DNA of 21,775 nt from a virus: positions 5 to 21,779 of IMG/VR virus record IMGVR_UViG_3300001450_000384, one strand, 5' to 3'. The notes below the pieces were generated by a model. The model ran no database searches. It was given only the letters and a program-made list of their open reading frames with translations, and was not told the origin of the DNA. A program made the translations under genes and the position numbers. Position 1 is the stretch's first letter; the number at the start of each line of letters is the position of its first letter. Shown piece after piece: positions 4,058 to 21,775 of the stretch.

Positions 4058-4702
4058 ATGCCAGTATTAAGAAGGCCTATATATCAATATCAACCAATAA
4101 ATGAAACGCCCGAAGTGGCTATAGGCATCCCATTACCATTTAATAAATCATCTCATGTATCAGGTGATCGACTAAAAACACCAGTTACTGGAGATTCTAA
4201 TGAATATGCATCAACTCCGTCTGCCGGTGGTGTAGTATTTGGACAAACATATACAACAGAAGAACAATCTGTATCTAATTTAAAAAATTTAATAATGACC
4301 TTTAAAGGTGAGAGATTCATGCAACCAAATTTTGGTACTAGAATAAGAGAAGTTTTATTTGATAATAATACTACAGGTTTACGTAACGCATTAGAATCTA
4401 CAATACGCGATGATATTAGTTATTGGTTACCTTATATTGGAATAGTAGGATTAGATTTAGAAACTGATCATTCAGGTCATGAAATTAAAATACAATTACG
4501 TTTTAGAGTCAGTACAGTTGGGGCTAACTTAGTCATCAATATTTTACTTGGAGAAAATTCATTAATCGTATCAGATGCAGAAGCTGATACAGGTCAGACA
4601 TTAGCCGAAATAGGTTCAGCAGGTCAAGGCTCAGGATTTGACTTAGGTAATCTATCTTCAGGATATGTTGGTGGTGGTACTGGTGGAGGAATGGGATATT
4701 AA
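4058..4702 (+). CDS. gp25: Baseplate wedge protein, gp25-like
   Basis: Residues about 70-180 match the gp25/GPW/TssE wedge fold. They run from a leading helix (VSNLKNLIMTFKGER) to the signature GERFMQPNFGTRIREVLFD (84-102) and a closing helix-strand pair (IQLRFRV...NLVINILLG). The classic ExxR-type core is altered to MQPNF, but the flanking pattern is clear. gp25 binds sheath and the gp6/gp7 wedge bundle at the start of sheath assembly. At 214 residues it is longer than T4 gp25 (132). The extra parts are a polar N-terminus (Pro-rich, about 65 residues) and a Gly/Ser-rich tail ending GGGTGGGMGY. The ribosome-binding site is weak, and translation probably relies on coupling to the preceding gene one base upstream. 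The gp6 gene follows after 12 bases, the usual pairing. Confidence 0.88.
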   Translation: MPVLRRPIYQYQPINETPEVAIGIPLPFNKSSHVSGDRLKTPVTGDSNEYASTPSAGGVVFGQTYTTEEQSVSNLKNLIMTFKGERFMQPNFGTRIREVLFDNNTTGLRNALESTIRDDISYWLPYIGIVGLDLETDHSGHEIKIQLRFRVSTVGANLVINILLGENSLIVSDAEADTGQTLAEIGSAGQGSGFDLGNLSSGYVGGGTGGGMGY

Positions 4703-4714
4703 TAGGGATAAATT

Positions 4715-6568
4715 ATGTCAGATTTGATAAAAAAAGAAGTTAAATATTTAAATAAAGATTTTGCTCAGTATAGACAAAATCTAATAAACTTTGCAAAAAA
4801 TTATTTTCCAAAGACGTATCAAGATTTTAATGAATCATCGCCAGGTATGATGTTTCTAGAAATGTCAGCATATGTAGGTGATGTTTTAAATTACTATACA
4901 GATCAATCATTTAGAGAATCATTATTATCAACAGCAAGAGAAGGGTCAAATATTTTAAATTTAGCTCGAATGTTTGGGTATCATACAAGGCGTAATACAC
5001 CATCAAATGTTTCAGTTGATATTTTTCAATTAGTTCCTGCATCAGGAAGTGGTGAAGGTGCACGACCAGATATGGATTATGCATTATCAATATCAGATGG
5101 TATGGTAGCATCTTCTAATACAGGCAAAAAATTTAGAGCAGTTGAGCCAATTGATTTTAGACAAGATCCGGAAGTAACTGTATATGAATTAAATTCATCT
5201 GGAGAAGTAGCTAGATATCTACTTAAAAAACAAGTAACTATGGTATCTGGAGAAGTTAAAGAAGAGCAATACCAATTTCGAGATCCTAAGCCATATGATA
5301 AAATTACATTACCAGAAAATAATGTTATTGATATTATATCAGTATCTGATTTAGCAGGAAACAAATTCATGGAAGTTGATTATTTAGCACAGGATACAGT
5401 TTTTGAGGATATTGCAAACATACCATTTAACGACCCAGAATTGTCAGCATATAGATCTACAGTACCTTATATTTTAAGATTAAAAAGAACAGCTAGGCGG
5501 TTTGTTAAAAGATTACGTGAAGACGGAAGAACAGAAATGCAATTTGGATCAGGTGTATCATCGGATGCAGATGAAGAAATTATACCAAATCCAAAAAATG
5601 TAGGATCTGGATTAGAATATTTAAGACGTACAACTACAGATACTATCGATCCATCAAACTTTTTATATACTAGTACATATGGATTGGCACCACAGAATAC
5701 AACATTAGCTGTTAAGTATTCAATAGGAGGCTCGATTCAAGATAATGTAGGAGTTAATACAATTATAAATGTTGATGAAGTAGAATATTCAAATGAAATA
5801 ACAGGAGTTGATTTAGAAGATACGAAGGCATCAGTTGCTATTAGCAATCCTGGACCTGCTGTTGGAGGAGGAGCGGCTCAAGATTTAGAACAAATTAGAC
5901 AAAATGCTATGTCAGCATTTGCTGCTCAAAGTAGAATAATAACAAGAGAAGATTATATAGCAAGAATATTTGCAATGCCAGCAAAATTTGGCTCTGTTGC
6001 AAAGGCATATGTAGTAGGTGATCAACAATTGGATACAGCTGATAAAGATTATCCTAGAGATACTATACAAAATCCTTTAGCATTAAATTTATATTTGTTA
6101 GCACAGGATGCAAATGGAAGATTTACATCTCCAAATCAAGCTCTTAAAGAAAATATAAGAACTTATTTATCACAATATAGAATGTTAACTGATGCAATAA
6201 ATATTAAAACTGCATTTATAGTAAATATTGCTCTAGATTTTGAAGTAATACCAAAACCAAAAAGTAATGGCAATGAAGTATTATTACAATGTATTGCTGT
6301 ATTGAAAACTATATTTGATAATATGAGAATGATGATAAACGCGCCTATAGATACATCAAGTGTTATTAATCAATTAAATTTAATTGAAGGTGTACAAAGT
6401 ATACCAACATTTGAGATATATAACAAATCTGGAGGAATATATTCAAATAATGTTTATGATTTTGAACTAGCTAAGAAACATGGTATAGTATATCCATCTT
6501 TAGATCCATGTATATTTGAAGTAAAGTTTCCAAATCGTGATATAAGAGGTAGAATAGTAAAACCATAA
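4715..6568 (+). CDS. gp6: Baseplate wedge protein, gp6-like (baseplate J family)
   Basis: The N-terminus has the gp6 signature: INFAKNYFPKTYQDFNESSP, then GMMFLEMSAYVGDVLNYYTDQ (about residues 24-70). A baseplate-J motif lies at about 392-420 (IRQNAMSAFAAQSRIITREDYI). The C-terminus, with PIDTSSVINQLNLIEGV and VYPSLDPCIFEVKFP, is also typical. Its 617 residues compare with 660 in T4. gp6 forms the dimeric ring that joins the six wedges, the inner baseplate core on which sheath contraction begins. AGGGA lies 6 bases before the ATG. Together with gp25 just upstream, this is the strongest evidence for a contractile tail. Confidence 0.93.
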   Translation: MSDLIKKEVKYLNKDFAQYRQNLINFAKNYFPKTYQDFNESSPGMMFLEMSAYVGDVLNYYTDQSFRESLLSTAREGSNILNLARMFGYHTRRNTPSNVSVDIFQLVPASGSGEGARPDMDYALSISDGMVASSNTGKKFRAVEPIDFRQDPEVTVYELNSSGEVARYLLKKQVTMVSGEVKEEQYQFRDPKPYDKITLPENNVIDIISVSDLAGNKFMEVDYLAQDTVFEDIANIPFNDPELSAYRSTVPYILRLKRTARRFVKRLREDGRTEMQFGSGVSSDADEEIIPNPKNVGSGLEYLRRTTTDTIDPSNFLYTSTYGLAPQNTTLAVKYSIGGSIQDNVGVNTIINVDEVEYSNEITGVDLEDTKASVAISNPGPAVGGGAAQDLEQIRQNAMSAFAAQSRIITREDYIARIFAMPAKFGSVAKAYVVGDQQLDTADKDYPRDTIQNPLALNLYLLAQDANGRFTSPNQALKENIRTYLSQYRMLTDAINIKTAFIVNIALDFEVIPKPKSNGNEVLLQCIAVLKTIFDNMRMMINAPIDTSSVINQLNLIEGVQSIPTFEIYNKSGGIYSNNVYDFELAKKHGIVYPSLDPCIFEVKFPNRDIRGRIVKP

Positions 6569-6578
6569 GGGAAGAGAT

Positions 6579-7715
6579 ATGTATAGATTATTTTTTGCAG
6601 AACGAGATACAACATTATATGAAAAGTACCCAACTCAAAATACAGGTATAGATCAGATATTAGAACTAACAAAAATAACATCAGGTTCTAAAATTCAAAA
6701 TGTTGTACAATCACAGACACTGAATTCTAGATTTATTTTAGATTTTGGAACACAAGTAAATACATTGTCTCAATCAATTGTAACAGGTGAAATACCAGCT
6801 TTAGGTAATAATACAAATTCTGCATCTGTATTCGTAACTGTTAAAGCAGCAACTGCGACAGATTTATTACATTCTTATACAATTGAAGCATATCCTGTTT
6901 CAGAATCATGGGTTAATGGAAATGGAAATTTTTCAGATATTCCAATACAAAAATTTGGTGCATCATGGGAATTTAAATCAGGTGACCAGACAGCAGATAA
7001 TTGGGCATCATTAGCTAATGTAAAACAAGGTGGTGATGAATTTGCAACAACTCGAGGAGGAGGAACGTGGTTTACTGGATCTGGTTTTGAATCATCACAA
7101 TCATTTGAAAATGAATCACCAGATATAAGAATAAATGTAACTGACATAGTCAGACAATGGATATCCGGATCTATACCAAACAATGGATTTATATTTAAAC
7201 GAACAAAAACAGATGAAGAATCTCAAGAAATATTAGGATCAATTAAATTCTTTGGTCGTGAAAGTCATACAATATTTGTTCCTCGATTAGAGGTATCATA
7301 TGATAATACGACATTTCCAGATACGAGTTCAGCTGAAATTGCTTCTGATACATATGTTCCATATATTAAAAATATTAAACGTGAATATAGAACATCAGAA
7401 CAAACTAAATTTAGAGTAGGCGTTAGACCAGAATTTCCTGACAAGGCATTTCAAACATCGTCATTTTATTTGACAGGTGAAAGATTGCCAACATCAAGTT
7501 ATTTTAGTATTTTAGATTCAGTAACTGATGAAACAATAGTACCATTTGATACAACAGCAACTCAAATTGATTGTGACATAAATGGTAGTTTTATGCAAAT
7601 AAGAATGGATTCATTTATGCCAGAAAGATTTTATAAAATAATGTTAAAAATAGAACGTGATGGAGGAAATGATATACAAACATTTGATGATTTTTATTTT
7701 AAGGTGGTGAAATAA
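6579..7715 (+). CDS. DNRLRE-like beta-rich baseplate protein
   Basis: The 378-residue protein appears all-beta. Residues about 1-245 have the features of a DNRLRE/CBM96-like module: an N-terminal FAERDTTLYEKYPTQNTG (compare the 'D-T-Y-x-x-N-G' opening), SRFILDFG strands, a YPVSESWVNGNG turn, and VTDIVRQWISGSIPNNGFIF (about 187-206), which resembles the conserved 'V-x-x-W-x-G-x-x-N-x-G' element. Residues about 260-378 form a second beta segment (RVGVRPEFPDKAF, ERFYKIMLKIERDG). Such modules bind polysaccharide in bacterial surface proteins and also occur in viral structural proteins. AAGGGA is 6 bases before the start. It stands where T4 has gp7/gp8 but resembles neither, so a wedge-periphery role is inferred from position. 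Confidence 0.72.
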   Translation: MYRLFFAERDTTLYEKYPTQNTGIDQILELTKITSGSKIQNVVQSQTLNSRFILDFGTQVNTLSQSIVTGEIPALGNNTNSASVFVTVKAATATDLLHSYTIEAYPVSESWVNGNGNFSDIPIQKFGASWEFKSGDQTADNWASLANVKQGGDEFATTRGGGTWFTGSGFESSQSFENESPDIRINVTDIVRQWISGSIPNNGFIFKRTKTDEESQEILGSIKFFGRESHTIFVPRLEVSYDNTTFPDTSSAEIASDTYVPYIKNIKREYRTSEQTKFRVGVRPEFPDKAFQTSSFYLTGERLPTSSYFSILDSVTDETIVPFDTTATQIDCDINGSFMQIRMDSFMPERFYKIMLKIERDGGNDIQTFDDFYFKVVK

Positions 7716-7716
7716 T

Positions 7717-10548
7717 ATGGCAAGATATGCAGCAGAAAGTCAGGGTTCAACTCCAGAATCTCCAAATCCTAATCAACCATTATCAGGAATAGATTCTGGA
7801 TTAGATACTAACATGTTGTTAGGAAATAATCGATATACAGCAAATCGTACTACTGAAGAAAATTTAGATGAATTTAATAGAGATCGTATTTTATTATCTA
7901 TTCTTCAAGATGAATTTCCAAGTGATGTATTTTACTCGCGAGGCAGATTAACACCAGGTTTAGAATCTGAACAAGCACGTGAGGCATTGAATCCTAATAG
8001 CCAAGAAAGAAAAAAAGAAAAAGTTTTTGCAAAAAGAAATCCGGGTGGAGTTGCTCAATTTGAAGCAAGAAAGGAGATATATGAAAAATATACATTGACA
8101 AAAGCATATCCTACTATTGATGAAGAAGATTTAGATGAAATTATAGATGAAGAATGGGATACATTTAAAGATCCAGTTGAAACTGAAGAAATTCCTATTG
8201 TCAAGCGTAAAAGAACAGGATTATTTTTAACCACATCTGATTTTAGGAAAGATGATGCGCATCATATGTATATTACTCAAGGACCACAAACTTTAGAAGC
8301 ATCAGATATTGATATAGAAGGTATATTTTGCGTATTTTATATATTAAATGGAAGGGCAAGGCCGTTACCTAATTATAAAACATTAGAAGTAATGTTAGCA
8401 GAACGTGGTTCTCGATATGATATTATAAGGACAGCATCATCAGGAGAAATTTCAGAATATGATATGAAATTGGATGGACAAGATACTCAAACTATATATG
8501 GAGCTGGTGATCCTGAATATGAAGGAGCAGAAGAATATAATTCAGCATATGCAGAATATTTGGGCAGAGCTATGCCTGACAGATCGCGTGAATGGAATGA
8601 TGAAATAAGATTTAGAAGTGGCTATCGACCTATCAGGCCATTTGTAAGAGATCCAGGAGATTATATCAAACCTGTTTCAATGAGAAGGTCAGGAGGAAGA
8701 ATACCCGAAGATGATGAAGGTAATCCATTACCAGCTGATATTCTTGCAGAACATGATCCAAATGATTATTATACAGATCAAGTTTTCTTGAGACAAACTT
8801 ATAGAGAACAAATGCGAGAACAATACGAAGGAAAGATAGTATTGAGCCGTTGGCCTGCGCCATATGACAATCCTAGTGAAGTAAGTGAAGATAACCCACC
8901 ACCAGGACCAACCGAATTAGCATCTGATCTAGAAGTTACTCAAGGTACTCAAATAAGGGCAGATGATTATGTTTCAGGTGTTAGATTTATGATGTTAGGA
9001 CATTGGAAACAAGTAAGATCAAATCCTGCCTTAAGATTATATGCAACTAAACAAGGTATAGACTTAGCAAGATATGAACCTCAACAAACAATTTCAGGAG
9101 CAGATGGCCAACCATTAGGATTTGATGAAGCATTTGAAGCAGGAGAAGGTAGATATGGACGAATAGGTTTAATAAATCTAATTAGAGAAGCTGGCGGTAT
9201 TGATGTATTAGAACATACAAATGATGATCCACATCCGGTCTGGATTACATTTCCTCAAATAGTAGAAGCAGATACAGATGGCATACCTGGTATGGATTTA
9301 ACTGAATATATTGAATATTTAGATTATTTTTCAAATGGAGGCAGGCCATTCGAAAATGAGTTTCTAGAACCATTTGAACCACCTGGATCAATAAAATATT
9401 ATAATCTAGAAGCATATCAAGATTTAGTCCGACAAGCTATTTTACAAGAACAAATTGATATTATTAAAGACCAGATAATGGAATTACTTCCATCATTAGC
9501 TGCAAAAACAGAGCAAATGAAAATTGAATTTGATTCATTACCAACTAATTATATTGACTATTCTAATAAGTTATTAGGAGACGGAGGGCCATTATATCAA
9601 ATTTTCTTTTCAAAAAATGGTAAATGGAAATATAAGAAAAAAAGAGGATGGCCACAGAAAGATATAAAAACTAAAGATGATAGTAAAGCATTCTTTACAT
9701 TATTAAAACGATTACATAGATTTAGAGCAAATCTAAATGAAGATGAAGAAAATAACATTGTTAAAAAGGATAATCATAAATGGATGAGATCTGTTGCAAG
9801 GGATAAATTTGCAAGCTGGATGAATCAAGGAGGAGGATTTGATTCAAGCAATTATCCAGTCGAAGGACCATTAGCACCTGAAATACAAAAAGCAAGAGAT
9901 GCGGCGGATAATGCATTTACAAGTTTTAGTTTACAACCTGTTGCATTATCAATATCATTTGCGGCTACATTAGCACTTGCAAGTCCTATAGGATTTATAG
10001 CAGGTATTACATTTGCTATAGTAGATGTATTAATGGGGCAAGTAGAAGATGGAAAATACATATATCCTCCATGGAGATTTATGAAAGATAATTGGTATGT
10101 TAAATCATGTATATATCGAGGTAATGAAGAAAAAATGAATGATTTATTTTCTCGTTGTGCCCAAGCTGATGCATATATGCCATGGCTGAGAGAAACAATA
10201 AATAAATTAAATGGTCAAATGTTTATGATAGATGAGATGATAACATTGGCAGATGATGTAACAGAATTTGAAAGAATATTTGACGGATTATTAGCAATGC
10301 AAAATTTATTTACAGTTCTTGAAACAGGTGGATTGTTAGATTATGTACATGACTTACGAAGTGAGATAGATGGATTCGTTTCAGATCAATTGAAAAGACA
10401 ATATAATGCAATTCAATATATTAGAAAAAAATGCCATCATAAAGTAGGAAATAAAAAGAAATTTTTTATTGTCTGGCCAAGAGGACCACAAGAAGTTTTA
10501 AATGAATACGTCCCTGGTTTAACATTTGATAATTATTTGAGAACGTAG
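7717..10548 (+). CDS. Large baseplate-region structural protein, unknown, with hydrophobic segment
   Basis: The 943-residue protein has no family that I can name. The N-terminal part is highly acidic (EEDLDEIIDEEWD about residue 138). The middle contains YVSGVRFMMLGHWKQVRSNP and a Pro/Asp-rich stretch (DNPPPGPTE). The second half is helical, including LVRQAILQEQIDIIKDQIME and a helical bundle near the C-terminus (MIDEMITLADDVTEFERIF). About residues 743-775 form a hydrophobic Ala/Ile/Leu run broken by Pro and Gly (SFAATLALASPIGFIAGI), unusual for a soluble wedge protein. It may be a buried helical hairpin or a membrane-active element. AAGGTGG lies just before the ATG, which is one base after the preceding stop. 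Size and place recall T4 gp7 (1032 residues), but the following gene carries better evidence for that role. Confidence 0.8.
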   Translation: MARYAAESQGSTPESPNPNQPLSGIDSGLDTNMLLGNNRYTANRTTEENLDEFNRDRILLSILQDEFPSDVFYSRGRLTPGLESEQAREALNPNSQERKKEKVFAKRNPGGVAQFEARKEIYEKYTLTKAYPTIDEEDLDEIIDEEWDTFKDPVETEEIPIVKRKRTGLFLTTSDFRKDDAHHMYITQGPQTLEASDIDIEGIFCVFYILNGRARPLPNYKTLEVMLAERGSRYDIIRTASSGEISEYDMKLDGQDTQTIYGAGDPEYEGAEEYNSAYAEYLGRAMPDRSREWNDEIRFRSGYRPIRPFVRDPGDYIKPVSMRRSGGRIPEDDEGNPLPADILAEHDPNDYYTDQVFLRQTYREQMREQYEGKIVLSRWPAPYDNPSEVSEDNPPPGPTELASDLEVTQGTQIRADDYVSGVRFMMLGHWKQVRSNPALRLYATKQGIDLARYEPQQTISGADGQPLGFDEAFEAGEGRYGRIGLINLIREAGGIDVLEHTNDDPHPVWITFPQIVEADTDGIPGMDLTEYIEYLDYFSNGGRPFENEFLEPFEPPGSIKYYNLEAYQDLVRQAILQEQIDIIKDQIMELLPSLAAKTEQMKIEFDSLPTNYIDYSNKLLGDGGPLYQIFFSKNGKWKYKKKRGWPQKDIKTKDDSKAFFTLLKRLHRFRANLNEDEENNIVKKDNHKWMRSVARDKFASWMNQGGGFDSSNYPVEGPLAPEIQKARDAADNAFTSFSLQPVALSISFAATLALASPIGFIAGITFAIVDVLMGQVEDGKYIYPPWRFMKDNWYVKSCIYRGNEEKMNDLFSRCAQADAYMPWLRETINKLNGQMFMIDEMITLADDVTEFERIFDGLLAMQNLFTVLETGGLLDYVHDLRSEIDGFVSDQLKRQYNAIQYIRKKCHHKVGNKKKFFIVWPRGPQEVLNEYVPGLTFDNYLRT

Positions 10549-10550
10549 TT

Positions 10551-13500
10551 ATGCCTATACAAAGATTTTCCAATCAAGAAGAAATTATTAAGACAAGAGG
10601 TAAGGTCCGCGGACTAACCTGGAGATCAGAAGATATACCACTTTTACAACTTGGTACAAAAAATATATCTCCATCAGAAAAGCCAATAGTAGAAGTCCAT
10701 GTATATGCACCAGGTGAAGGTGGAAAATATTTAAATGGCGGCGTTATTAATGATGAAAATTTTGACATTTCAAAAGATGAATTATTTATAGATTGGTCAA
10801 CGGCGTTTAGAGAAACATTTGATATTGAACGTGGACTTTTTGAAGTAGGTATAAATGTACATAAAAATATATTAGGTAGTGATGATTCACCTCCATTATT
10901 TATTCAATCAATTTCTCCAGATAGGCGTGAATTACATATTAAAGTGGTTCCTGGATATAATTTAGATTTAGATAGTTACTTAGATGCATTTGGAGAAGAA
11001 TCACGATTAGAAACAATATACGAAACTGTTTTAGATAATAATGGAAACGAAATTTTAGTATATGATGATAATGGTAATCCAACTCCTAAAGCAACTGTAG
11101 AAAGACCTTTATCAGATGATATATCATTAAATTTTGGCGGTAATATGATCTATAGAATCATAAACCAAAAAGATTGGAATGAAGAAAATGATTTTGTAGT
11201 TAGATTATATCAACCATTAGCTCCAAGCATTAAGGTAAAGGATCTATTCTGGATTGTTGAAGAATTAAGTGATACATATTTTGATAATATTAATATTAAA
11301 GGTCCTCAGGCAATAGATATTAATAAAAAGAAATTAAGAGGACCAAACTTAAATGCAAATGCTCAATACGGTACTATTACAGAAACTGATTTTAGAAATT
11401 GGAATCAATTATTAGATGCCAATGCTTCTGTGTCACAACAAATAGTTGATAATATATTTTCTGGATCATTAGAAGGTGAAAAACTGGGAATAGATTATAC
11501 CGGACTTGACAATTTTGTGCATTTTTCATCTGCTAGAGATAGAGTTGATAACTTTTATTATAAATTACAAAGAGTAGAGTTTTTTGATGATAGATTAAAA
11601 ATTCTTGAAGATGCGACCGGAACTGATTCGACTGCCCTTCAAGGAAATATTGCTCAAACAACAAAACAAAAAGATCAAGTTATAGGTTCATTTGATGGAT
11701 TTGAAAGATGGTTATATAATGAACGTACTGCGAGTTTATCTACACATGGAGTATCTGGTTCCTTTGTAGGAGCTCAAGGATATACTTTACGTCCATGGCC
11801 TAAATTTTTAACTAGTGGTGTATCTACAAATCATCATTCAACATCAAGTTTAGGATTAGCATGGATAGATGGATTTAGAGACACCGCATCTTTATATGAC
11901 GTGCATAATGAAAGTTCGCTTGCAAAGACAATACCAGAACATATTAGATTAGATAATAATAATTCTCAATATGAATTATTTGTTAACATGGTAGGACAAC
12001 ATTATGACATTTTATATTCATATATTAATAATTTAACAAAAATTTATTATCCGGAAGAACAACCTAAATTAGGACAAAGTAAAGATGTAATGTATCAAGC
12101 TACAGAAGCATTAGGTTGGAGATTAATTAACGGAAAGCAAGGAACGTCATTATGGCAATATAAGTTAGGTGTTGACTCCGGATCTGGTGCATACTTACAA
12201 ACAGGTTCATTGTTTTCTAAAACTGATGAAGAAATAACAACAGAGGTATGGCGTAGGATATTCAATAATCTACCTTATTTACTTAAAACTAAAGGGACTA
12301 CGCGGGGTATTAAAGCATTGATGAATACATATGGTATTCCTCAGACTTTGCTTTCTATTAGAGAATATGGAGGACCAAAGGTTGGTGAAGAAGCTCCAAC
12401 ATTAATTGAAGATAGATTTACATATGCATTACAATTTGCAAGTAGTTCAACTACACATGTTCCAATTAACAATGTTACATCTTCACTATATCCATCTGGT
12501 TCATATGTTGTATATCAAGATGGCCAGTATTCATCAAGTTTAACTGAGTCCATAAGTCCTACATCTGGCGTTGAAAGATCATGGGGTATTCAAAGAGGTC
12601 AAACTCCTGCCATGACACGAGAATTTAGATTTAAGCCTGCAAAAAAGGCAAACATGTTATTGTTATCTAGATATAATCCATCAGGACAAGCTTCATTCCA
12701 TTTGGCACTCCAGCATACTGCATCATTTTCAGGATCTAATCAATGGGGAAGAGTATTTTTCTGTCTAGGACAATCTGGTGAAAATGATCTACCGCAAGTT
12801 GATAATGGCGATTTTGGTAATTCGGCAACAGATCATAAAGCTCCAATGACGGCATCAACTGATTATCTACCAATATTTGATGGAGATTTTTGGAATATAA
12901 GACTTTATTTTGAACCAACGTCAAGTAATATAGGAGGCACTGGAACGGCTGATAATAAAAGTTATATTAATAGATTAGTTCCATTTAATGATTTATATAC
13001 TGATTCAAATAGGAAAAATTTTAATGCAGTAAATAATTCATCAGTACAATATCGAGTTGAATGTCAGAGAGCATCTGATTATATTAAAGGTAAAGTTGTA
13101 CATTCTTCAAGTTTAATAATAGTACCTGAATCAGAAACGCATAATGAAGCATGGGCTCCTGATTTCACTGCTGATCCAGGAGATGGAGATGGTGATTCAC
13201 ATATTTACATTGGAGGAAATAATCGTGGAATACTAAGAAATTTTTCAGTACTTGGAGGTGCAACTCCATGGAATAATTTAGCCGGTACTCAAGGTGTTGG
13301 ACAATATACATTCCATTTCTTTAATGGAACATTGACAGGATCTGGACCAACAGATTATAATGAATTTTCTCTTTCATCATCATTTGCAAGACCAGGTATA
13401 GGAATGTTTACAGGATCAATGCAAGAATATAGAGAATGGTTAGAAGTATTTGATAAGCGAACATTTGATCTGCATACATTGAATCCAACATCATATGTAT

Positions 13501-15911
13501 CAGGTTTATCACCAACATCATCATATGATACATTGATAAGACATTATCCTTTTGGAACAGATTTATATGCAGTTGATCATAATGAAACAAAATATATGCA
13601 CTTGACATCAAGTCATCCAGCGCAAACATTTAGAGATTTTTCTATTGATTTAGCATTATCATCATCAGATACAAATGTATCTACTACATTTGCAACAGCG
13701 TCTGGATTTCCTGCTCCATTTAATTTACAGAGAGGGCATTATACACCAGTAGAAGAAACATATTTTGTACAAGGAGTTTCATTAGGAGGATCTTTACCTA
13801 AATCACAAAAAATAAGATTAGAGGATAATAAATTGATAAGAAGATTATCTCCTCAATCTAGAGCTGAGCGATCTAGTTTTGATTTAGCACCAGTTGATAC
13901 AAATAAGTTAGGATTATTCTATTCTGCGGCTGATCAAATAAACAAAGAAATTTTCAATCATATTGGAGATGTAGAATTAGATGATTTTGTAGGAGATCCA
14001 AATGATGAGTTTGAAACTGATTATCCAAATTTATTACATTTTTCAAAAGAATATTGGAAAAAATATTCTGATAAAAATGATATAAATGCATTCATGAGAG
14101 TTTTTTCTCAATTTGACTTTTCATTGTTTGAACAAATGAAACAATTAATTCCAGAACGAGTAGATGAAGCGATGGGATTATTAGTTGAACCAGCTGCTTT
14201 AGAAAGATCAAAAGTACGACTTACTAGTTTACCTGTCATAGAAAAACCATTTTATGATGGATTTATAGCAGATCCATCACCTACAATGAGTGGACTTATA
14301 CAGCCATTATCTGCAAGTATAAAACAATCACCTAATGTAGTTGCAAGCCAAGTCTATCATGTATCAAGAAGTGGATATGTTGATTTTGGAAATTATGTCG
14401 GACCAATTGAATTATTTAATGCATCCGGGGCAATGGATTATACTCAAATAGCAGAATATGCATTAGATGCATTACCAGAAGGATCATCATCAGTGATTGC
14501 AAATTATGTATTTCCAAATCCTGGAGCTAATAGATCTGGTTGGACAAATCTACATAATAGAGCTGATGAACCAAATTCATTATCACCAGGTGGTGATGAT
14601 CATGTAGTTAATAGTATACCATTATTATCAGAACAATATCCACCTGGAATAGAAGCAGCACAATCTGCTCAACAACATACTACAACTATTAAAGTTGATG
14701 GTGTCGGATCTATACTTAGACCAAAGTCAGATTTTTTACGTGTACAGGTAAATACTTACAATGAATTTGATACTATACGAGATTTCAAAGTCAATGTTAG
14801 ATTTGCAGCTCAGACAGGTTCAACAGGACAAATACCATCATCGTCTAGATTTAGTGGTAGATTAATAGAAACAGAAGGAAATTTGCATGGCCAACTTAAA
14901 CAATTTTTGACATTCTTTAGTTTTCATGATCCAGAAATATCAGGAACACCTGGCCTGGGTTCTGGTTCTTATTATTTCCGAAATGCAGGTGGAGGTACTG
15001 GTATAACATTAGGAGATGTATTTGGAGGAACAGGAACAGTGCCTAATGATGGTATGATGTCTCATGGACATGCAGTCATGCCAGTATTTTATAATGAACA
15101 TGCTGGTTCTGGTGCAGGACCTGCAGAGATAGTCGGTAATAAGCAAGGATCTGTCTATAGAGCTAATTCAGATCTACCAACAAATATTGAACATACAAGA
15201 GGAATGAGTGCTGCAGCAAAAGATTTAACAGCATTTGATGTAAGAACTTTTGAGTTCTGGAAAGAATCGACAACAGGTATAGGAGTTGTGCCAAATGGTG
15301 ATTCAATAATTGCTAAAAATTTAAGATATCCATTACATCAAGAATTTGAATTTAAAAATGTACATATAAGACCAAGAACAAACTTAACATTTGAATTGTT
15401 TGTAGATAATCCATTAATGTTAATACCTGGTGCAGGAAATAAACATACTCATGAAGATGGAGCAGGGCAATTAACAGCAAGTCTAGATGCTGTAATGGTC
15501 GATTTTAAAATGAAAAAGATTTTACATGATCCAATATTTGTACAAGTTTTAGATCAAAGACCAAGTCCTAAGTTTGATAAATATGATTTCACATATAATA
15601 CTGGTTCGGCAGTGTCAAAAGTAGGAAAAGATCGAGAAAGATTTATTAGCCAATCTATAGGAGGATATCCAGGATTATTTCAAACTAGATTTTCAAGACC
15701 AGCTGATTATCAAGATGATCAATTTATAATGACAGAAAATTTAAGATATGATGGATGTAAATTGGTAGGTCCTGGTATAAATTCTGTAACAGAAATAGCT
15801 GCCATTGATAACAGACCAGTTATAGAAGTATATGGTGTTAATCCAAATCAATTAATTTATACTGATATACCAACTAATGAAAGTAGAGGAGGTAATTTAA
15901 TAGTTAGATAG
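10551..15911 (+). CDS. Giant baseplate/tail protein with P2 gpI-like segment and LamG-like domain
   Basis: The 1786-residue protein appears modular. Residues 1-150 form a beta module (ELFIDWSTAFRETFDIERGL, FIQSISPDRRELHI). Residues about 480-605 include the run GWRLINGKQGTSLW, EVWRRIFNNLPYLLKTKGTT, RGIKALMNTYGIP and REYGG. This order (Trp, Arg-Arg-Ile, Lys-Gly-Thr, Gly-x-Pro, Glu-x-Gly) is like the phage P2 tail protein I family, the gp7 counterpart of simpler baseplates. A concanavalin/LamG-like domain spans about 690-985 (REFRFKPAKKANMLLLSR, DGDFWNIRLYFE, IYIGG, GSMQEYREWLEVF). Residues about 1180-1225 carry FDFSLFEQMKQLIPERVDEA and PAALERSKV. The remainder is beta-rich and Ser/Gly-rich. 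It starts 2 bases after the preceding stop with only a weak ribosome-binding site. The domain calls are by eye. Confidence 0.8.
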   Translation: MPIQRFSNQEEIIKTRGKVRGLTWRSEDIPLLQLGTKNISPSEKPIVEVHVYAPGEGGKYLNGGVINDENFDISKDELFIDWSTAFRETFDIERGLFEVGINVHKNILGSDDSPPLFIQSISPDRRELHIKVVPGYNLDLDSYLDAFGEESRLETIYETVLDNNGNEILVYDDNGNPTPKATVERPLSDDISLNFGGNMIYRIINQKDWNEENDFVVRLYQPLAPSIKVKDLFWIVEELSDTYFDNINIKGPQAIDINKKKLRGPNLNANAQYGTITETDFRNWNQLLDANASVSQQIVDNIFSGSLEGEKLGIDYTGLDNFVHFSSARDRVDNFYYKLQRVEFFDDRLKILEDATGTDSTALQGNIAQTTKQKDQVIGSFDGFERWLYNERTASLSTHGVSGSFVGAQGYTLRPWPKFLTSGVSTNHHSTSSLGLAWIDGFRDTASLYDVHNESSLAKTIPEHIRLDNNNSQYELFVNMVGQHYDILYSYINNLTKIYYPEEQPKLGQSKDVMYQATEALGWRLINGKQGTSLWQYKLGVDSGSGAYLQTGSLFSKTDEEITTEVWRRIFNNLPYLLKTKGTTRGIKALMNTYGIPQTLLSIREYGGPKVGEEAPTLIEDRFTYALQFASSSTTHVPINNVTSSLYPSGSYVVYQDGQYSSSLTESISPTSGVERSWGIQRGQTPAMTREFRFKPAKKANMLLLSRYNPSGQASFHLALQHTASFSGSNQWGRVFFCLGQSGENDLPQVDNGDFGNSATDHKAPMTASTDYLPIFDGDFWNIRLYFEPTSSNIGGTGTADNKSYINRLVPFNDLYTDSNRKNFNAVNNSSVQYRVECQRASDYIKGKVVHSSSLIIVPESETHNEAWAPDFTADPGDGDGDSHIYIGGNNRGILRNFSVLGGATPWNNLAGTQGVGQYTFHFFNGTLTGSGPTDYNEFSLSSSFARPGIGMFTGSMQEYREWLEVFDKRTFDLHTLNPTSYVSGLSPTSSYDTLIRHYPFGTDLYAVDHNETKYMHLTSSHPAQTFRDFSIDLALSSSDTNVSTTFATASGFPAPFNLQRGHYTPVEETYFVQGVSLGGSLPKSQKIRLEDNKLIRRLSPQSRAERSSFDLAPVDTNKLGLFYSAADQINKEIFNHIGDVELDDFVGDPNDEFETDYPNLLHFSKEYWKKYSDKNDINAFMRVFSQFDFSLFEQMKQLIPERVDEAMGLLVEPAALERSKVRLTSLPVIEKPFYDGFIADPSPTMSGLIQPLSASIKQSPNVVASQVYHVSRSGYVDFGNYVGPIELFNASGAMDYTQIAEYALDALPEGSSSVIANYVFPNPGANRSGWTNLHNRADEPNSLSPGGDDHVVNSIPLLSEQYPPGIEAAQSAQQHTTTIKVDGVGSILRPKSDFLRVQVNTYNEFDTIRDFKVNVRFAAQTGSTGQIPSSSRFSGRLIETEGNLHGQLKQFLTFFSFHDPEISGTPGLGSGSYYFRNAGGGTGITLGDVFGGTGTVPNDGMMSHGHAVMPVFYNEHAGSGAGPAEIVGNKQGSVYRANSDLPTNIEHTRGMSAAAKDLTAFDVRTFEFWKESTTGIGVVPNGDSIIAKNLRYPLHQEFEFKNVHIRPRTNLTFELFVDNPLMLIPGAGNKHTHEDGAGQLTASLDAVMVDFKMKKILHDPIFVQVLDQRPSPKFDKYDFTYNTGSAVSKVGKDRERFISQSIGGYPGLFQTRFSRPADYQDDQFIMTENLRYDGCKLVGPGINSVTEIAAIDNRPVIEVYGVNPNQLIYTDIPTNESRGGNLIVR

Positions 15912-15955: not shown

Positions 15956-16612
15956 ATGGGATATTTAAATAATGCAACAATAACAGTAGATGCAATTCTT
16001 ACCAAAAAAGGTAGAGAATTATTAGCAAGGGGTAGAGATGAGTTTCGAATTACTCAATTTGCCTTAGCAGATGATGAAATAGATTATGATTTATATAATC
16101 CTGATCATCCATTGGGTACAGCATTTTACGGTGCGGCAATAGAAAATATGCCAATAGTAGAAGCAATTCCAGATGAAACACAAATGATGAAATATAAATT
16201 AGTTACATTACCAAAAGGAACTGCACGTATCCCAGTAGTAAGAGTGGCACAAACATCTATAGAATTAGAAGCAAATGAAAGTACAGTAATTAGACCAAAT
16301 ACAGTTAACTTCAGTGGAGGTAATAGAAGATTTGGATATACAGCAATTTTATCTGATTCAGATGTATGTGACATAGTCGCAACCAGAAGAGCTGGTGCAT
16401 CGGCTGCATCAATTCCGCAGTTCATCGGAGATTCAGAAGCAGCTCAAAGTATTACAGTATCTGGAATGGAATTTGAAATTACAGGTAAAGAGCATTTAAA
16501 TGCAGATAGACAAGCAACATTATTAATAATTGGTAATGAAACAGGTGGAAGAACAACTGTAAATATAACGGTCAGAAAAGTTGAAGTAACAACAGTAGGA
16601 ATGGCTAGATAA
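15956..16612 (+). CDS. Structural protein with MGYLNNATITVDAILTKKGR start, unknown function
   Basis: The 218-residue protein opens with MGYLNNATITVDAILTKKGR and ELLARGRDEFRITQFALADDE. I recall this N-terminus from virion structural proteins of uncultured marine phages, where its role is not established. The C-terminal half is beta-rich (IPVVRVAQTSIELEANES, then EAAQSITVSGMEFEITG and TLLIIGNETGGRTTVNIT), consistent with an Ig-like sandwich. Two downstream structural genes follow in the same direction after 26 and 19 bases, so it is probably part of a tail or baseplate-periphery set. It has a clear GAAGGGA ribosome-binding site. No signal peptide or catalytic motif is visible. Confidence 0.75.
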   Translation: MGYLNNATITVDAILTKKGRELLARGRDEFRITQFALADDEIDYDLYNPDHPLGTAFYGAAIENMPIVEAIPDETQMMKYKLVTLPKGTARIPVVRVAQTSIELEANESTVIRPNTVNFSGGNRRFGYTAILSDSDVCDIVATRRAGASAASIPQFIGDSEAAQSITVSGMEFEITGKEHLNADRQATLLIIGNETGGRTTVNITVRKVEVTTVGMAR

Positions 16613-16638: not shown

Positions 16639-17940
16639 ATGGCAGTATATAATAGACGAGTATCAGCAAGACCAGGCCGTTTTGCATCATCAAGACCTCA
16701 ATCAAGTCCAGGAGGTCAAGGTCAGATAGAACAATTGGCTAGGCAAATGGCGGAACAAATATTACGTGAAAGAGATGCGGCCGCGCAGAGAGCTCGATTA
16801 GGAAGAATCTTTACACAATTTGACTCAACAAATGATGTTCTACCTAACAATGTAGAAACAGTGACAAGAGGATTGTTTTCAGGAAATACAGGTAGTTTAA
16901 TTAATATGTTTTTTAATTCAAATTTAACTGCCACCCAGCAAACATATTTCCAAGATATTTATTCAACTGGTGATCCTGCTTCCAATGCAATGGCATCAGA
17001 AGAATTATCTATTACATATGGTAATTTTGGAGGTTCAGGATCTTCAGATTTAACTGGTAACTTAAATAATGATACTCCTACAAGAGCAATTTATAAACAA
17101 TATGCACAAATATTGTTAGCACCTAATGATAAAAAGTTTACATTTAATGGAGTTGATTCAGATAATATTTATGTGTTAAATATTAATCGTTCTAGGATGC
17201 GAGAAAAATTAGATCCAGGAAATTTAGAATTAACATTAGCAAGATTATCTGGTTCATCTTATACAAACGCAACTGGTGTTTTATTAAATGCACAAGGTAA
17301 TGATGCAACATTAGATCAACATACAGGTTCTAATGTGTTACTAGATGGATCTGGTAAATATATTCAATTGATAGATGATTCAGGAGAAAATGCTGGAGCA
17401 GTTGCAGATGCAGGACAAATATTTAATATTGTATCAGGAACATTAGATGGAGGGGCAACTATACATAATCCAACAAGTCCTATACATTATGGATTAATGT
17501 TTCCTCAACATGGTGTAATAGTATTGAATGGTGATGTATTAGATACGAATGCAGGATTTGGAACAAGTACAGGATCAGGAGCAGGATATCAAGGTGAAAA
17601 TGCGACTAAATTATTTAAATCATTATCAGGATCAGATGCATTAACACCTGCTACTGTTAATGGAGGTATTCAAGCAAGGTCATCAGAACAAGTTAAATCA
17701 ACTTATTACTTTGTAAGAGTTAAAAATGCAGAATATAATTATTCAAATAATCCATCTTATACAACTGGTTCATTGGGTGAATTAATATTTAGTACATTTA
17801 TTAACGATCCTCAAGTATATATTACAACAGTAGGTATGTATAATGAAAGACGAGAATTATTAGCAGTTGCTAAATTGAGTCAGCCATTATTGAAAAACTT
17901 TACTAGAGAAGCACTTGTAAAAGTTAAATTAGACTTTTAA
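16639..17940 (+). CDS. Structural protein with C-terminal domain shared with next gene
   Basis: The 433-residue protein has a basic, disordered N-terminus (residues 1-27, Arg/Ser/Gly-rich). A helix or coiled coil follows at about 28-58 (QIEQLARQMAEQILRERDAAAQ), then a long Ser/Gly/Thr/Asn-rich beta region. Residues about 358-433 form a C-terminal domain ending YITTVGMYNERRELLAVAKL to KVKLDF. Without gaps, its last 40 residues match the last 40 of the next gene at 15 positions, so the two proteins probably share a docking or attachment domain. It is not recognised beyond this. AAAGG lies 15 bases ahead, a loosely placed ribosome-binding site. A GCGGCCGC 8-mer (16777-16784) encodes part of the Ala-Ala-Ala in the helix. 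Confidence 0.76.
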   Translation: MAVYNRRVSARPGRFASSRPQSSPGGQGQIEQLARQMAEQILRERDAAAQRARLGRIFTQFDSTNDVLPNNVETVTRGLFSGNTGSLINMFFNSNLTATQQTYFQDIYSTGDPASNAMASEELSITYGNFGGSGSSDLTGNLNNDTPTRAIYKQYAQILLAPNDKKFTFNGVDSDNIYVLNINRSRMREKLDPGNLELTLARLSGSSYTNATGVLLNAQGNDATLDQHTGSNVLLDGSGKYIQLIDDSGENAGAVADAGQIFNIVSGTLDGGATIHNPTSPIHYGLMFPQHGVIVLNGDVLDTNAGFGTSTGSGAGYQGENATKLFKSLSGSDALTPATVNGGIQARSSEQVKSTYYFVRVKNAEYNYSNNPSYTTGSLGELIFSTFINDPQVYITTVGMYNERRELLAVAKLSQPLLKNFTREALVKVKLDF

Positions 17941-17959: not shown

Positions 17960-20134
17960 ATGCCAATTGAACCATCAGTTTTTCAACCTATACGACCAAA
18001 TGATTATCAGGAAAGACCGTTTTACGCGTATAAAAAATATTTTGTAAATAATGTTGGATTTACAACCGAATCTGGATATGTAAGGCATGATGCTATATAT
18101 CTAGGATTTCCAGAACCAGTAGGAGTTGATAATCAAGGTTCTTTAAGTTTTGCAGGAACAAATGTAGAAGACAATACACAAAAAACGGTAGTATGGTCTA
18201 CTATTGATCATAAATATTATAGACATCCATATGATCCAGCAAAGACATTTGAACATAGTAATGAAGATACTACGGAAAAGTTTTTATGGTATTCAGCATC
18301 AATCTTAACATTTCCTTATTTTCAGACTGGAGAAAAAATTAAACCAGGATCGGTTACAGGATCGTTTATTATGGGTGATCAGTCATTTAAATTAATAGAC
18401 GATGGTGTAGGAAATTTACGAGATCCATTAATTGTTACTCGAAGTTTTGCATCTGAAAGTAAATCTATTTTACATTTATCATTTAATAAAACATTCCGTC
18501 AATTTAAAGATGTAGAAGAAAATTTAGGACTATATCGAGATGGCCTAGAATATAAAATAGGCAGGGCAACTAGATTTGCAACACCATCTGATGTGAGTTG
18601 TAAAGGAGATGGTGTAATATTATCTGGATCATTATCTGGTGAAACAGATCCTTTTGAAGTATCATCTGGCCTAGCCGGTCATTTTATAGATCGATCATCA
18701 TATGTACGTATTGCACATAGTAAGGAATTTAATCGTTTCAATAAATGTGATGATTGGACAATATGTTTTTGGATAAAGAAGGTAACTACAGGATCTGATA
18801 CTAGACATATAATAACAAAAGGTGGAGTAATTGAAGAAGCCTTTTTAGATGAACAAACTACTTTTGAAAGAAAGCCACCAAGTCCTCATATACAGGTACA
18901 TGGGCCAGGCCATGCTCATCATGGAAAAGGAAGAAAAAGTATTGTTAAGCCTAGTGTAATAGTACAACGTAAGACTGAAAAAATACTTAAAAGGCGTGAT
19001 AGAAACGTGCCATTACCAGATATTAAAAGTTCATTTAGACGATTTAGAACTCCATTTATGGTAGGGGTTGAAACGACAGAAACTGATTTAACTCATTATC
19101 ATTTCAGAGCTAGTGATGGTGGTAATGAATTGCATATGTCCGCATCAACAAATACTACAGGTGCAGCATTGTCAGCAAGTTCTTGGGACCATGTATTAAT
19201 ACGTAATCAAGATCAAACATGTAAGTTTTTTATTAATGGTACTGAAACAGGTCAAAGCGGTTCATTACCAACTCAGCCAACAGCTAATAAACAAGATATC
19301 ATGATTGGTTCTCCTAATACTATTAAAAACTTTTTACCAAATACTATTAAACGAACAACATTAGGAATAGATGGTAGTATTTCAGTGTATGAAGTATCAG
19401 GATCTCTTACTACTTTAGGAACATTAGTCATAGAACCAGGTGTATTATTAATAGTTAGAGGTGATATGTTTATTAATGCACCAACAGTAACTGTGCAGAA
19501 TGGAGGAACATTAAAAGTGTTTGGTGATATAATTCAAAGTGAACCTGGACTTTTAGTAATAGAGGTAGGAGGATTAGTCCAGGTACCAGGAGCAGTTGAT
19601 GATTTAAATGATTATCACTTAAGCGAAGTTCGTATGTTTTCATATGGAGTGGATCAAACTGGTATTTCTTCTTTGGCAAATAGAGATTATCTTTCTGGTT
19701 CATTATATCAATCAAATGTTGCTGGAAATGTATTTTATAAAAATTTACAAATGGTTGTTTCATCACCAATGCCAAAATATAATTCAGGTTCAGGTGCATT
19801 TAATGAACAATTCGAAGTAAGATATAAAGGCCAACATAAAATATATGAAAATGAAGTTTTAGTTAGAGTCGGAAAGGATATAGCTAATGTTCCAATGAAT
19901 CCAACAGCTAATTATATTCCTAGTACAGGAACTAGTTGTCCAGATGATGGAAAGAATTCATTACCAGGAGAATTTAGAAAACCAATGTTTGTATCTGGTA
20001 CAGCACTTCCTTATATAACAACTATTGGATTATATGATGATAAGGCGCAATTATTGGCAATAGGTAAATGTGCTCAGCCCATACAAAAAAGAGATGATGT
20101 TGACATGAATTTTATAGTAAGATGGGACTATTAG
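17960..20134 (+). CDS. LamG/concanavalin-like tail protein with two inserts and shared C-terminal domain
   Basis: The 724-residue protein has an N-terminal region (1-230) that is not recognised. A LamG-like core follows, with SSYVRIAHSKEFNRF, DWTICFWIKK, SASSWDHVLIRN, CKFFINGTETG, DIMIGS and, after a gap, LSEVRMFSYGVDQTGISSLAN, matching successive LamG strands. Two segments interrupt the fold. Residues about 292-375 are basic and His-rich (VHGPGHAHHGKGRK, then many Arg/Lys). Residues about 462-545 are repeated short strands with turns (GTLVIEPGVLLIVRGDMFIN, TVTVQNGGTLKVFGDII), like a beta-solenoid. Residues about 633-724 share the C-terminal domain of the preceding protein. It probably binds cell-surface glycans at the baseplate edge or fibre base. 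No Shine-Dalgarno sequence is visible before the ATG. Confidence 0.78.
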   Translation: MPIEPSVFQPIRPNDYQERPFYAYKKYFVNNVGFTTESGYVRHDAIYLGFPEPVGVDNQGSLSFAGTNVEDNTQKTVVWSTIDHKYYRHPYDPAKTFEHSNEDTTEKFLWYSASILTFPYFQTGEKIKPGSVTGSFIMGDQSFKLIDDGVGNLRDPLIVTRSFASESKSILHLSFNKTFRQFKDVEENLGLYRDGLEYKIGRATRFATPSDVSCKGDGVILSGSLSGETDPFEVSSGLAGHFIDRSSYVRIAHSKEFNRFNKCDDWTICFWIKKVTTGSDTRHIITKGGVIEEAFLDEQTTFERKPPSPHIQVHGPGHAHHGKGRKSIVKPSVIVQRKTEKILKRRDRNVPLPDIKSSFRRFRTPFMVGVETTETDLTHYHFRASDGGNELHMSASTNTTGAALSASSWDHVLIRNQDQTCKFFINGTETGQSGSLPTQPTANKQDIMIGSPNTIKNFLPNTIKRTTLGIDGSISVYEVSGSLTTLGTLVIEPGVLLIVRGDMFINAPTVTVQNGGTLKVFGDIIQSEPGLLVIEVGGLVQVPGAVDDLNDYHLSEVRMFSYGVDQTGISSLANRDYLSGSLYQSNVAGNVFYKNLQMVVSSPMPKYNSGSGAFNEQFEVRYKGQHKIYENEVLVRVGKDIANVPMNPTANYIPSTGTSCPDDGKNSLPGEFRKPMFVSGTALPYITTIGLYDDKAQLLAIGKCAQPIQKRDDVDMNFIVRWDY

Positions 20135-20159: not shown

Positions 20160-21775
20160 ATGAGTGAAATACAAGTAAATACCATAAAACCATTCTCTGG
20201 TGGGACGGTCGAAGTTATCGGAGATATAAGTGCTTCAGGAAAACTTATAGCCAAAGAATATCTTGTACAATCTGTTACAGAATCTGCAATGTTGGTAAAT
20301 GGTTCCAATCAATTTGGAAATTCTGCAGATGATACTCATACATTTACAGGAAATATAACTGCATCTAATGATATAAGTGCTTCAGGAACAATTACAGCAA
20401 ATGCATTTATTGGATCTATATCAGCTACTGGAGGGGATTCTTTATTTGGTGACATAACAGCATCAGGAAATGTAAGTGCAAGTGGAGATATAAGTACAAG
20501 TGAAAATTTAAATGTAGAAGGATCTGCATCATTTGGAACAGGAACAGTAGTAATAAATGGGACGGCAGGTCAAATAACAGCTTCTGGAAATATTTCTGCA
20601 AGTGGTAATTTAATAGGTAATTTCGTTTTTGGTGATAAATTTCATTCAAATGATAATGTAGTGTTTCAACATTCTGCAGGAATAACAAATATAGGAACAC
20701 CAGCTATACCAAACAAATTTTTTGGAAGTAATATTGAATTTGCTGCTCCAATAACAGCATCCAATATAAGCGCATCAGGTGCCATATCAGCATCTGAGTT
20801 ACTTATTAATACATCTGGGGGTGGATTTGACACTGAAAATATGGGAGTTAAAATTACTCCTAACTTAATGCAGGTAAGTTCAAGTTTTACATTTAAATTT
20901 GGTTCTGGCTCTCAGAATAATGCTTTATTGAGACAAGGTTCATTAATATTACGAAGCACAGTAGCCGATAATACAGGTTCGTTACAACTAGCTCAGCTGA
21001 ACACCGGTGCCGGCCGTATACGTTGTCCTAGAGACTTTTTAATTGCATTAGATTCTGCAGCTGACGGAGGTGGAGAAGATTATGAACCAGAAAAATTTAC
21101 AGTTGGGACAGGTGTCTTGCCAGGTATTGTAGGAGATATAGGATTTCAGGTAACACATCGTAGTACAAATGGAGATATAGATGAAATTAGGCATGTAACT
21201 GCATCAGGTAACATAAGCGCGAGTAGTCTTGTTACAAATGAAATTAATGGACTAAACCAGGCCGGAATAACATTAACAGGAAATGTGACAGCATCAGGCC
21301 AGATAAGTGCAAGTGGAGGAATTACGTCTAGTGGTATAAATTTACAAGGCGAAGATCCTATCATTTCATTAACAGATATAACAAATGATTATAATTTTCG
21401 AATTAAAGCTACTAATCGATTAGGAATAATAGCCACTGAACATTTTTCAAATGATGTTTTTGTTGCAACTAATTTTACAGGTCATAATGGTAATGTATAT
21501 AATACTACTGCATTATTCCTGGATTCAGGTGATGGTACATTTAACATAAATGGTGCTGAAGTTATAGTTTCTCCCACAGGTGATATAACAGCATCAGGTG
21601 ATATAAGTTCAAGTGGTGAACTATCAGCATTAACAGTTTCAGATGTATTAGCAGCTGCAGTAGTAACACAAATTGATAATGATGAAATTCCTATAGCTAA
21701 ATTAGCAGAAGATGCAGTAACTGTTACTGCAGGAACAGGTTTAACAGGAGGAGGATCGATTACATTAGGTGGCTC
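20160..21775 (+). CDS. Repeat-rich tail fibre protein, 3' end beyond window
   Basis: The frame stays open from the ATG for 538 codons to the window edge. It starts MSEIQVNTIKPFSGGTVEVI, the 'x-V-N-T-I-x-P-x-S-G' opening of many marine phage fibres. It then carries eight blocks of the ITASG-N-ISASG type, spread over about residues 22-486 and separated by variable inserts. The largest insert (about residues 215-345, IKVTPN-like strands, TGSLQLAQLNTGAGRIRC, then FLIALDSAADGGGEDYEP) may be a separate knob. The visible end, VTVTAGTGLTGGGSITLGG, is a motif common in the shaft of tail fibres. Such proteins often end in a self-cleaving S74-type chaperone, which would lie beyond the window. It would form the trimeric host-recognition fibre. 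The ribosome-binding site is weak (GAAAG). Confidence 0.85.
   Translation, partial: MSEIQVNTIKPFSGGTVEVIGDISASGKLIAKEYLVQSVTESAMLVNGSNQFGNSADDTHTFTGNITASNDISASGTITANAFIGSISATGGDSLFGDITASGNVSASGDISTSENLNVEGSASFGTGTVVINGTAGQITASGNISASGNLIGNFVFGDKFHSNDNVVFQHSAGITNIGTPAIPNKFFGSNIEFAAPITASNISASGAISASELLINTSGGGFDTENMGVKITPNLMQVSSSFTFKFGSGSQNNALLRQGSLILRSTVADNTGSLQLAQLNTGAGRIRCPRDFLIALDSAADGGGEDYEPEKFTVGTGVLPGIVGDIGFQVTHRSTNGDIDEIRHVTASGNISASSLVTNEINGLNQAGITLTGNVTASGQISASGGITSSGINLQGEDPIISLTDITNDYNFRIKATNRLGIIATEHFSNDVFVATNFTGHNGNVYNTTALFLDSGDGTFNINGAEVIVSPTGDITASGDISSSGELSALTVSDVLAAAVVTQIDNDEIPIAKLAEDAVTVTAGTGLTGGGSITLGG
20223..21618 (+). repeat. Eight ITASG/ISASG repeat blocks in the fibre gene
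   Basis: Blocks begin near 20223, 20351, 20451, 20570, 20749, 21196, 21286 and 21583. Each encodes one to three units of (G/N)-(D/N/Q)-(I/V)-(T/S)-A-S-(G/N). Some are near-identical in DNA: GATATAAGTGCTTCAGGA occurs at 20223-20240 and again at 20370-20387. The spacing between blocks ranges from about 90 to 450 bases. Confidence 0.85.

Follow-up and report, generated by a model that had tools for sequence, protein, structure and literature searches.

We examined a 21.8-kb stretch of DNA (21,775 nucleotides, here called the window) from the virus record IMGVR_UViG_3300001450_000384, in which one open reading frame (ORF, positions 10551-15911, + strand) encodes a giant protein of 1786 amino acids (aa), whose residue numbers are used throughout. 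This protein is probably a gp7/gpI-class baseplate wedge subunit of a contractile-tailed phage, with a LamG domain inserted in its chain. The gp7/gpI wedge class is already known; what is most likely new is the presence of a LamG domain inserted in a wedge-type protein. Direct searches of Pfam, PHROG, NCBIfam and PDB sequences with the whole protein returned nothing usable, and no library names it.

The opposite strand holds no ORF of comparable size at these positions. The original prediction, made from the DNA letters, had read an ordered series of motifs in this frame, and all of them are present: RRI (residues 568-570), LPYLLKTKGT (574-583, predicted as LPxLxKxKGT), GIP (595-597) and REYGG (604-608). 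The series spans residues 568-608, so the predicted span of 560-605 was set a few residues too early, and the Gly-Trp expected about 50 residues upstream is found as ALGW (520-523), about 46 residues before RRI. Among 16 aligned relatives, R569, K579, K581, G582, G595, P597 and G607 are invariant. In alignments of 75-101 relatives, most residues of the W, NNLP, KTKGT, YGIP and EYGGP elements are invariant or nearly so, and the signature residues rank among the most conserved of the family. Because these residues are kept so strictly across relatives, the signature motifs are not a chance pattern.

Profile comparison with hhalign points to P2 gpI as the counterpart of the segment that carries these motifs. 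Query profiles were built from 15 to 101 family members, and the target profile combined P2 gpI with seven diverse relatives. The motif segment scored 31-32 against gpI, with shuffled-column nulls that had means of 13-14 and maxima of 21-24. One comparison gave 31.4 over a null of 13.2 ± 2.5 (maximum 24.4 of 200 shuffles), and another gave 31.1, with a maximum of 21.6 in 60 shuffles and 16.1 for a reversed control. The confident alignment starts at RRI or just past it and continues through EYGGP, taking in the KGT / EWxxG core; in a relaxed alignment, an upstream helix and an 'LLPWLAW' element also fall in the same order. The match is specific to the motif segment, because the N-terminal core (N-core), C-terminal core (C-core) and LamG segments of the protein fail to match the gpI profile with hhalign. 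The motif segment, for its part, has no hhalign match to LamG or T4 gp7 profiles. On all the evidence, including the scans and models below, the segment is likely a remote homolog of the gpI class, and it is as remote homology that the claimed resemblance to P2 gpI has been borne out.

We also scanned 101 relatives, one at a time, against Pfam (24,736 families) and NCBIfam (18,950 families). The commonest Pfam family was Tail_P2_I (21 of the 101 relatives, best value 0.0092) and the commonest NCBIfam family was TIGR02242 (22 of 101, best 0.0019), in both cases below threshold. All eight of the Tail_P2_I matches that we viewed lie on the KGT segment, and P2 gpI itself matches TIGR02242 at 6e-6.

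An AlphaFold2 model of residues 431-647 is helical, with a predicted local distance difference test score (pLDDT) of 79. When this model was searched against the PDB with Foldseek, the first-ranked match was weak (E 1.4, prob 0.47) and came from the baseplate of the contractile injection system (CIS) of S. coelicolor; a Pam3 baseplate chain ranked fourth. The S. coelicolor wedge is built from two Cis11 and one Cis12 (PMC12237407). In the KGT register, the gpI profile weakly matches a 190-aa chain of this same S. coelicolor entry, which may or may not be the protein found by Foldseek. PDB profile searches with the motif segment gave only designed helical repeat proteins and chance matches.

Several of our results weigh against a wedge assignment. 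The Tail_P2_I gathering score of 20.6 is not reached by any relative (best 16.3 bits), while neither Tail_P2_I nor TIGR02242 is matched by the giant protein of the window. The match to T4 gp7 is non-significant, the gp7 profile being shallow (5 sequences); with the profiles used, however, even P2 gpI and T4 gp7, which are known relatives, do not find one another. Foldseek, which had been proposed as a check against gpI and gp7, found no significant chain of either kind with the model above or with a larger one of residues 41-1240, its top match for the motif segment being the contractile-system chain, and the two baseplate chains may be other subunits. These structure results would also fit a baseplate adaptor or receptor-binding protein encoded near gp6, with a convergent KGT motif and the true gpI/gp7 encoded by a different gene, for example the 378-aa or the 433-aa one of the window. 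A LamG domain and a variable tail are typical of adhesins, and designed helical proteins also match the motif weakly. However, the gpI profile match lies far over its shuffled nulls and in the correct register, Tail_P2_I and TIGR02242 top both libraries, and the partner gp6 matches TIGR02243. Additionally, the 378-aa gene encodes a DNRLRE protein, and in its strong conservation the core of the giant protein differs from a receptor-binding protein. We therefore consider an adaptor rather unlikely and favor the wedge subunit.

That the middle domain of the protein has a LamG fold is well supported. It scored 42.5 over 159 columns in hhalign against a profile of nine sequences of LamG type taken from the same locus set, compared with 12.7 ± 2.1 (maximum 17.0) for shuffles. 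The alignment is full-length, stands about 14 standard deviations over the null and includes the hallmark end GG...GSxxExRxW / GSLDEFRIY. The AlphaFold2 model of residues 41-1240 (pLDDT 77.5; predicted template modelling score 0.60) is beta-rich in its middle region, and its top Foldseek matches in the PDB were the thrombospondin-1 N domain, laminin LG, pentraxin and other lectin-like jelly rolls (best E 3.7e-3), the top 10 being mostly LamG-type or pentraxin folds. Were the domain a different jelly roll, the claim of a fusion would fail. Pfam and PHROGs scans found no LamG match in the 1786-aa protein, which stays below the LamG gathering score of Pfam, and the Foldseek matches have E values of only about 4e-3 and template modelling scores of 0.37-0.38 normalised by target. 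Against such an assignment stand the length and score of the LamG alignment, with its hallmark end, and the predominance of LamG-type and pentraxin folds among the best matches; we find it very improbable.

The original prediction placed a lectin-like domain after the wedge segment. The domain is real, but it is inserted between two conserved cores, the motif segment and the C-core, rather than appended. In the Flavobacterium immuto phage protein, the motif segment runs straight into the C-core, whereas in the remaining 144 of 145 chains an insert of some 226 aa or more separates the two. A version in which LamG interrupts the gpI fold proper, the C-core being the last strand-helix part of gpI, found no support. 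The C-core scores only 9.3 against gpI, so our claim is limited to an insertion between two conserved segments. At two loci, L005 (8001-13811) and L184, a second insertion lies inside the gpI-like segment, ahead of a WRR motif. Pfam clearly recognises the L005 insertion as LamG, and this pair also shows another, weak LamG-like match close to the C-terminus.

Sugar binding is frequent among LamG-fold proteins, and from the fold alone glycan binding by the inserted domain is putative. There is about an even chance that the wedge assignment is right and that the LamG domain is a purely structural beta-sandwich, which docks fibres or neighbouring wedges and binds no glycan. The frequency of sugar binding in this fold speaks against a purely structural role, as does the L005/L184 lineage, which gained its second LamG in the gpI-like segment as a surface-exposed module might. 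On the other side, an insert kept in all but one chain resembles a permanent structural element rather than a host-range module, a separate LamG domain occurs in the product of the nearby 724-aa gene, and the gp7-like part of extracellular contractile injection systems (eCIS) binds fibres (PMC8894135).

The giant protein belongs to a family that was previously unnamed in the libraries and records that we searched and that is abundant in aquatic contractile-tailed phages. A scan of IMG/VR with the single sequence found 21 relatives, and a scan with an alignment found the family at at least 579 loci, with most members about 1150-1940 aa long. Among named phage records, tblastn found homologs only in Microcystis phage Mel-JY01, Flavobacterium immuto phages and an uncultured 484-kb phage. 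The Mel-JY01 (WWT39511.1) and immuto (QQO92079.1) homologs are annotated as hypothetical, and the record of the 484-kb phage is unannotated. The domain layout is given in Table 1. The stretch after the C-core, comprising the variable region and the end motif, measures 149-900 aa across 133 complete relatives.

Table 1. Layout of the giant protein and its neighbouring genes in the window
Feature	Position	Strand	Evidence
Giant wedge-type protein, 1786 aa	10551..15911	+	open frame
Conserved N-core (residues 95-440), a beta-rich part followed by a long helical hairpin	10833..11870	+	alignment, AlphaFold2 model
P2 gpI / gp7-like helical segment (residues 436-613)	11856..12389	+	hhalign with nulls, Tail_P2_I/TIGR02242 matches of relatives, AlphaFold2
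Signature RRI..LPYLLKTKGT..GIP..REYGG (residues 568-608)	12252..12374	+	near-invariant alignment columns
Whole insert (about residues 612-1084), missing from the Flavobacterium immuto phage protein	12384..13802	+	alignment comparison
LamG / ConA-like lectin domain (about residues 617-960), FTGSMQEYREW near its end	12399..13430	+	hhalign, Foldseek PDB, AlphaFold2 strands
Conserved C-core (residues 1085-1225), KIRxExNxL ... FxQIxQLLPARxxxxxGLLIEP	13803..14225	+	alignments
Region variable in length and sequence (residues 1226-1727)	14226..15731	+	comparison of relatives
Conserved C-terminal motif GCKLxGPxxN..IDxxPVIEV..NPN (residues 1728-1786)	15732..15908	+	kept in 122/133 complete C-termini
gp25 / P2 gpW-like wedge and sheath initiator	4058..4702	+	phrog_261 7e-18
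gp6 / P2 gpJ-like wedge protein	4715..6568	+	phrog_219 5e-23, TIGR02243 1.6e-14
DNRLRE-domain protein, 378 aa, between gp6 and giant gene	6579..7715	+	NF033679 6.6e-10, above cut-off; homologs in 154 loci
Variable-length gene, 943 aa here	7717..10548	+	homologs detected in 45 loci
Conserved 218-aa gene, downstream	15956..16612	+	125 loci
Conserved 433-aa gene, downstream	16639..17940	+	108 loci
724-aa protein that also carries a Laminin_G_3 domain	17960..20134	+	PF13385 7.7e-10; 96 loci

PHROGs matches confirm gp25 and gp6, TIGR02243 additionally confirms gp6, and the predicted order of gp25, gp6 and the giant gene holds, with two genes between the last two. Relatives likewise have gp25 and gp6 first, followed by a gene of about 380 aa, in many cases a variable gene, then the giant gene, and after it genes of about 220 aa and about 340-440 aa and a longer one. 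The count of two inserted genes was right, but they are not incidental, as the first is the conserved DNRLRE-domain gene, whose product is a probable baseplate or adhesin part. The product of the second (7717-10548) is rich in charged residues and without a family match, and it has counterparts of, for example, 331-943 aa. Downstream, the 724-aa protein is probably a fibre or spike component. It has a C-terminal motif in common with the 433-aa protein (TTVGMYNERRELLAVAKLSQPL / TTIGLYDDKAQLLAIGKCAQPI), and positions 20160-21773 encode a fibre-like protein with repeated 'ITASGNISASG' elements that runs off the end of the window.

In the wedges of T4, XM1 and CIS, a gp7-class subunit links two gp6 subunits and extends toward the periphery (PMC3004832, PMC10457771, PMC6300606). 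By analogy, the giant protein would have a (gp6)2-gp7 stoichiometry in the core bundle and trifurcation of the wedge, a role in assembly and a peripheral position. We propose that its helical segment (residues ~430-613) probably packs with two gp6-like copies as the wedge core, that the LamG-fold domain (residues ~617-960), inserted after this segment, would project at the wedge periphery, and that the C-core and C-terminal peptide may anchor the chain farther out. Most probably, the core would keep the wedge together and relay the contraction signal, with the LamG domain and variable parts offering docking surfaces for adjacent adhesin or fibre proteins and, conceivably, for host or capsule glycans. 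On the simplest view, the LamG inserted in this gp7-class subunit would serve for docking or for surface contact. It is thus conceivable that the tail trigger plate itself contacts the host surface. It seems unlikely to us that, across these widespread aquatic phages, the wedge subunit that gates contraction carries a glycan-binding LamG and senses surface contact directly, not only via fibres.

A wedge role would give a name to the baseplate module of a large, mostly uncultured phage group, and it would mark the DNRLRE gene and the downstream genes as probable baseplate parts. Chains with and without LamG form a natural pair for the effect of an added lectin domain on a contractile baseplate. 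The homologs of Mel-JY01 and immuto share the gene order of the window, and the immuto protein differs from the window protein in lacking the LamG insert.

Among known systems, P2 gpI (Tail_P2_I, PF09684; pyocin R2 Tri2, PA0619; TIGR01634) shares the order KR/RRI ... KGT ... small-residue turn ... E-Y/W-G-G, and its gene also follows gp25/gpW and gp6/gpJ. The gpI-class proteins that we compared are about 176-243 aa long and without LamG, whereas the 1786-aa window protein also has a large N-core, a LamG domain, a C-core and a tail, and stays under the Pfam cut-off. The middle domain has its fold and a full-length profile alignment in common with Laminin_G_3 (PF13385), but it has diverged past Pfam detection and is embedded in a wedge-type protein. 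T4 gp7, the baseplate wedge initiator, is another large wedge protein of several domains whose gene follows gp6, although the T4 gp6 and gp7 genes are adjacent and two genes separate their counterparts in the window. The giant chain had been described as unlike T4 or P2. This holds for the inserted LamG, a domain found in neither the P2 gpI nor the T4 gp7 profile, but the contrast with T4 was overstated, because gp7 itself is multidomain, at 1032 aa. Some relatives of the giant protein match TIGR02242, though weakly, and gp6 of the window, which unlike in eCIS is a separate gene, matches TIGR02243. In AlgoCIS, the gp7-like part is described as a re-engineering hotspot that contacts fibres (PMC8894135). 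The gp7-like part of the eCIS proteins Cis12, Alg12 and Afp12 takes added domains and binds fibres (PMC8894135); in the window protein, the addition is a LamG domain.
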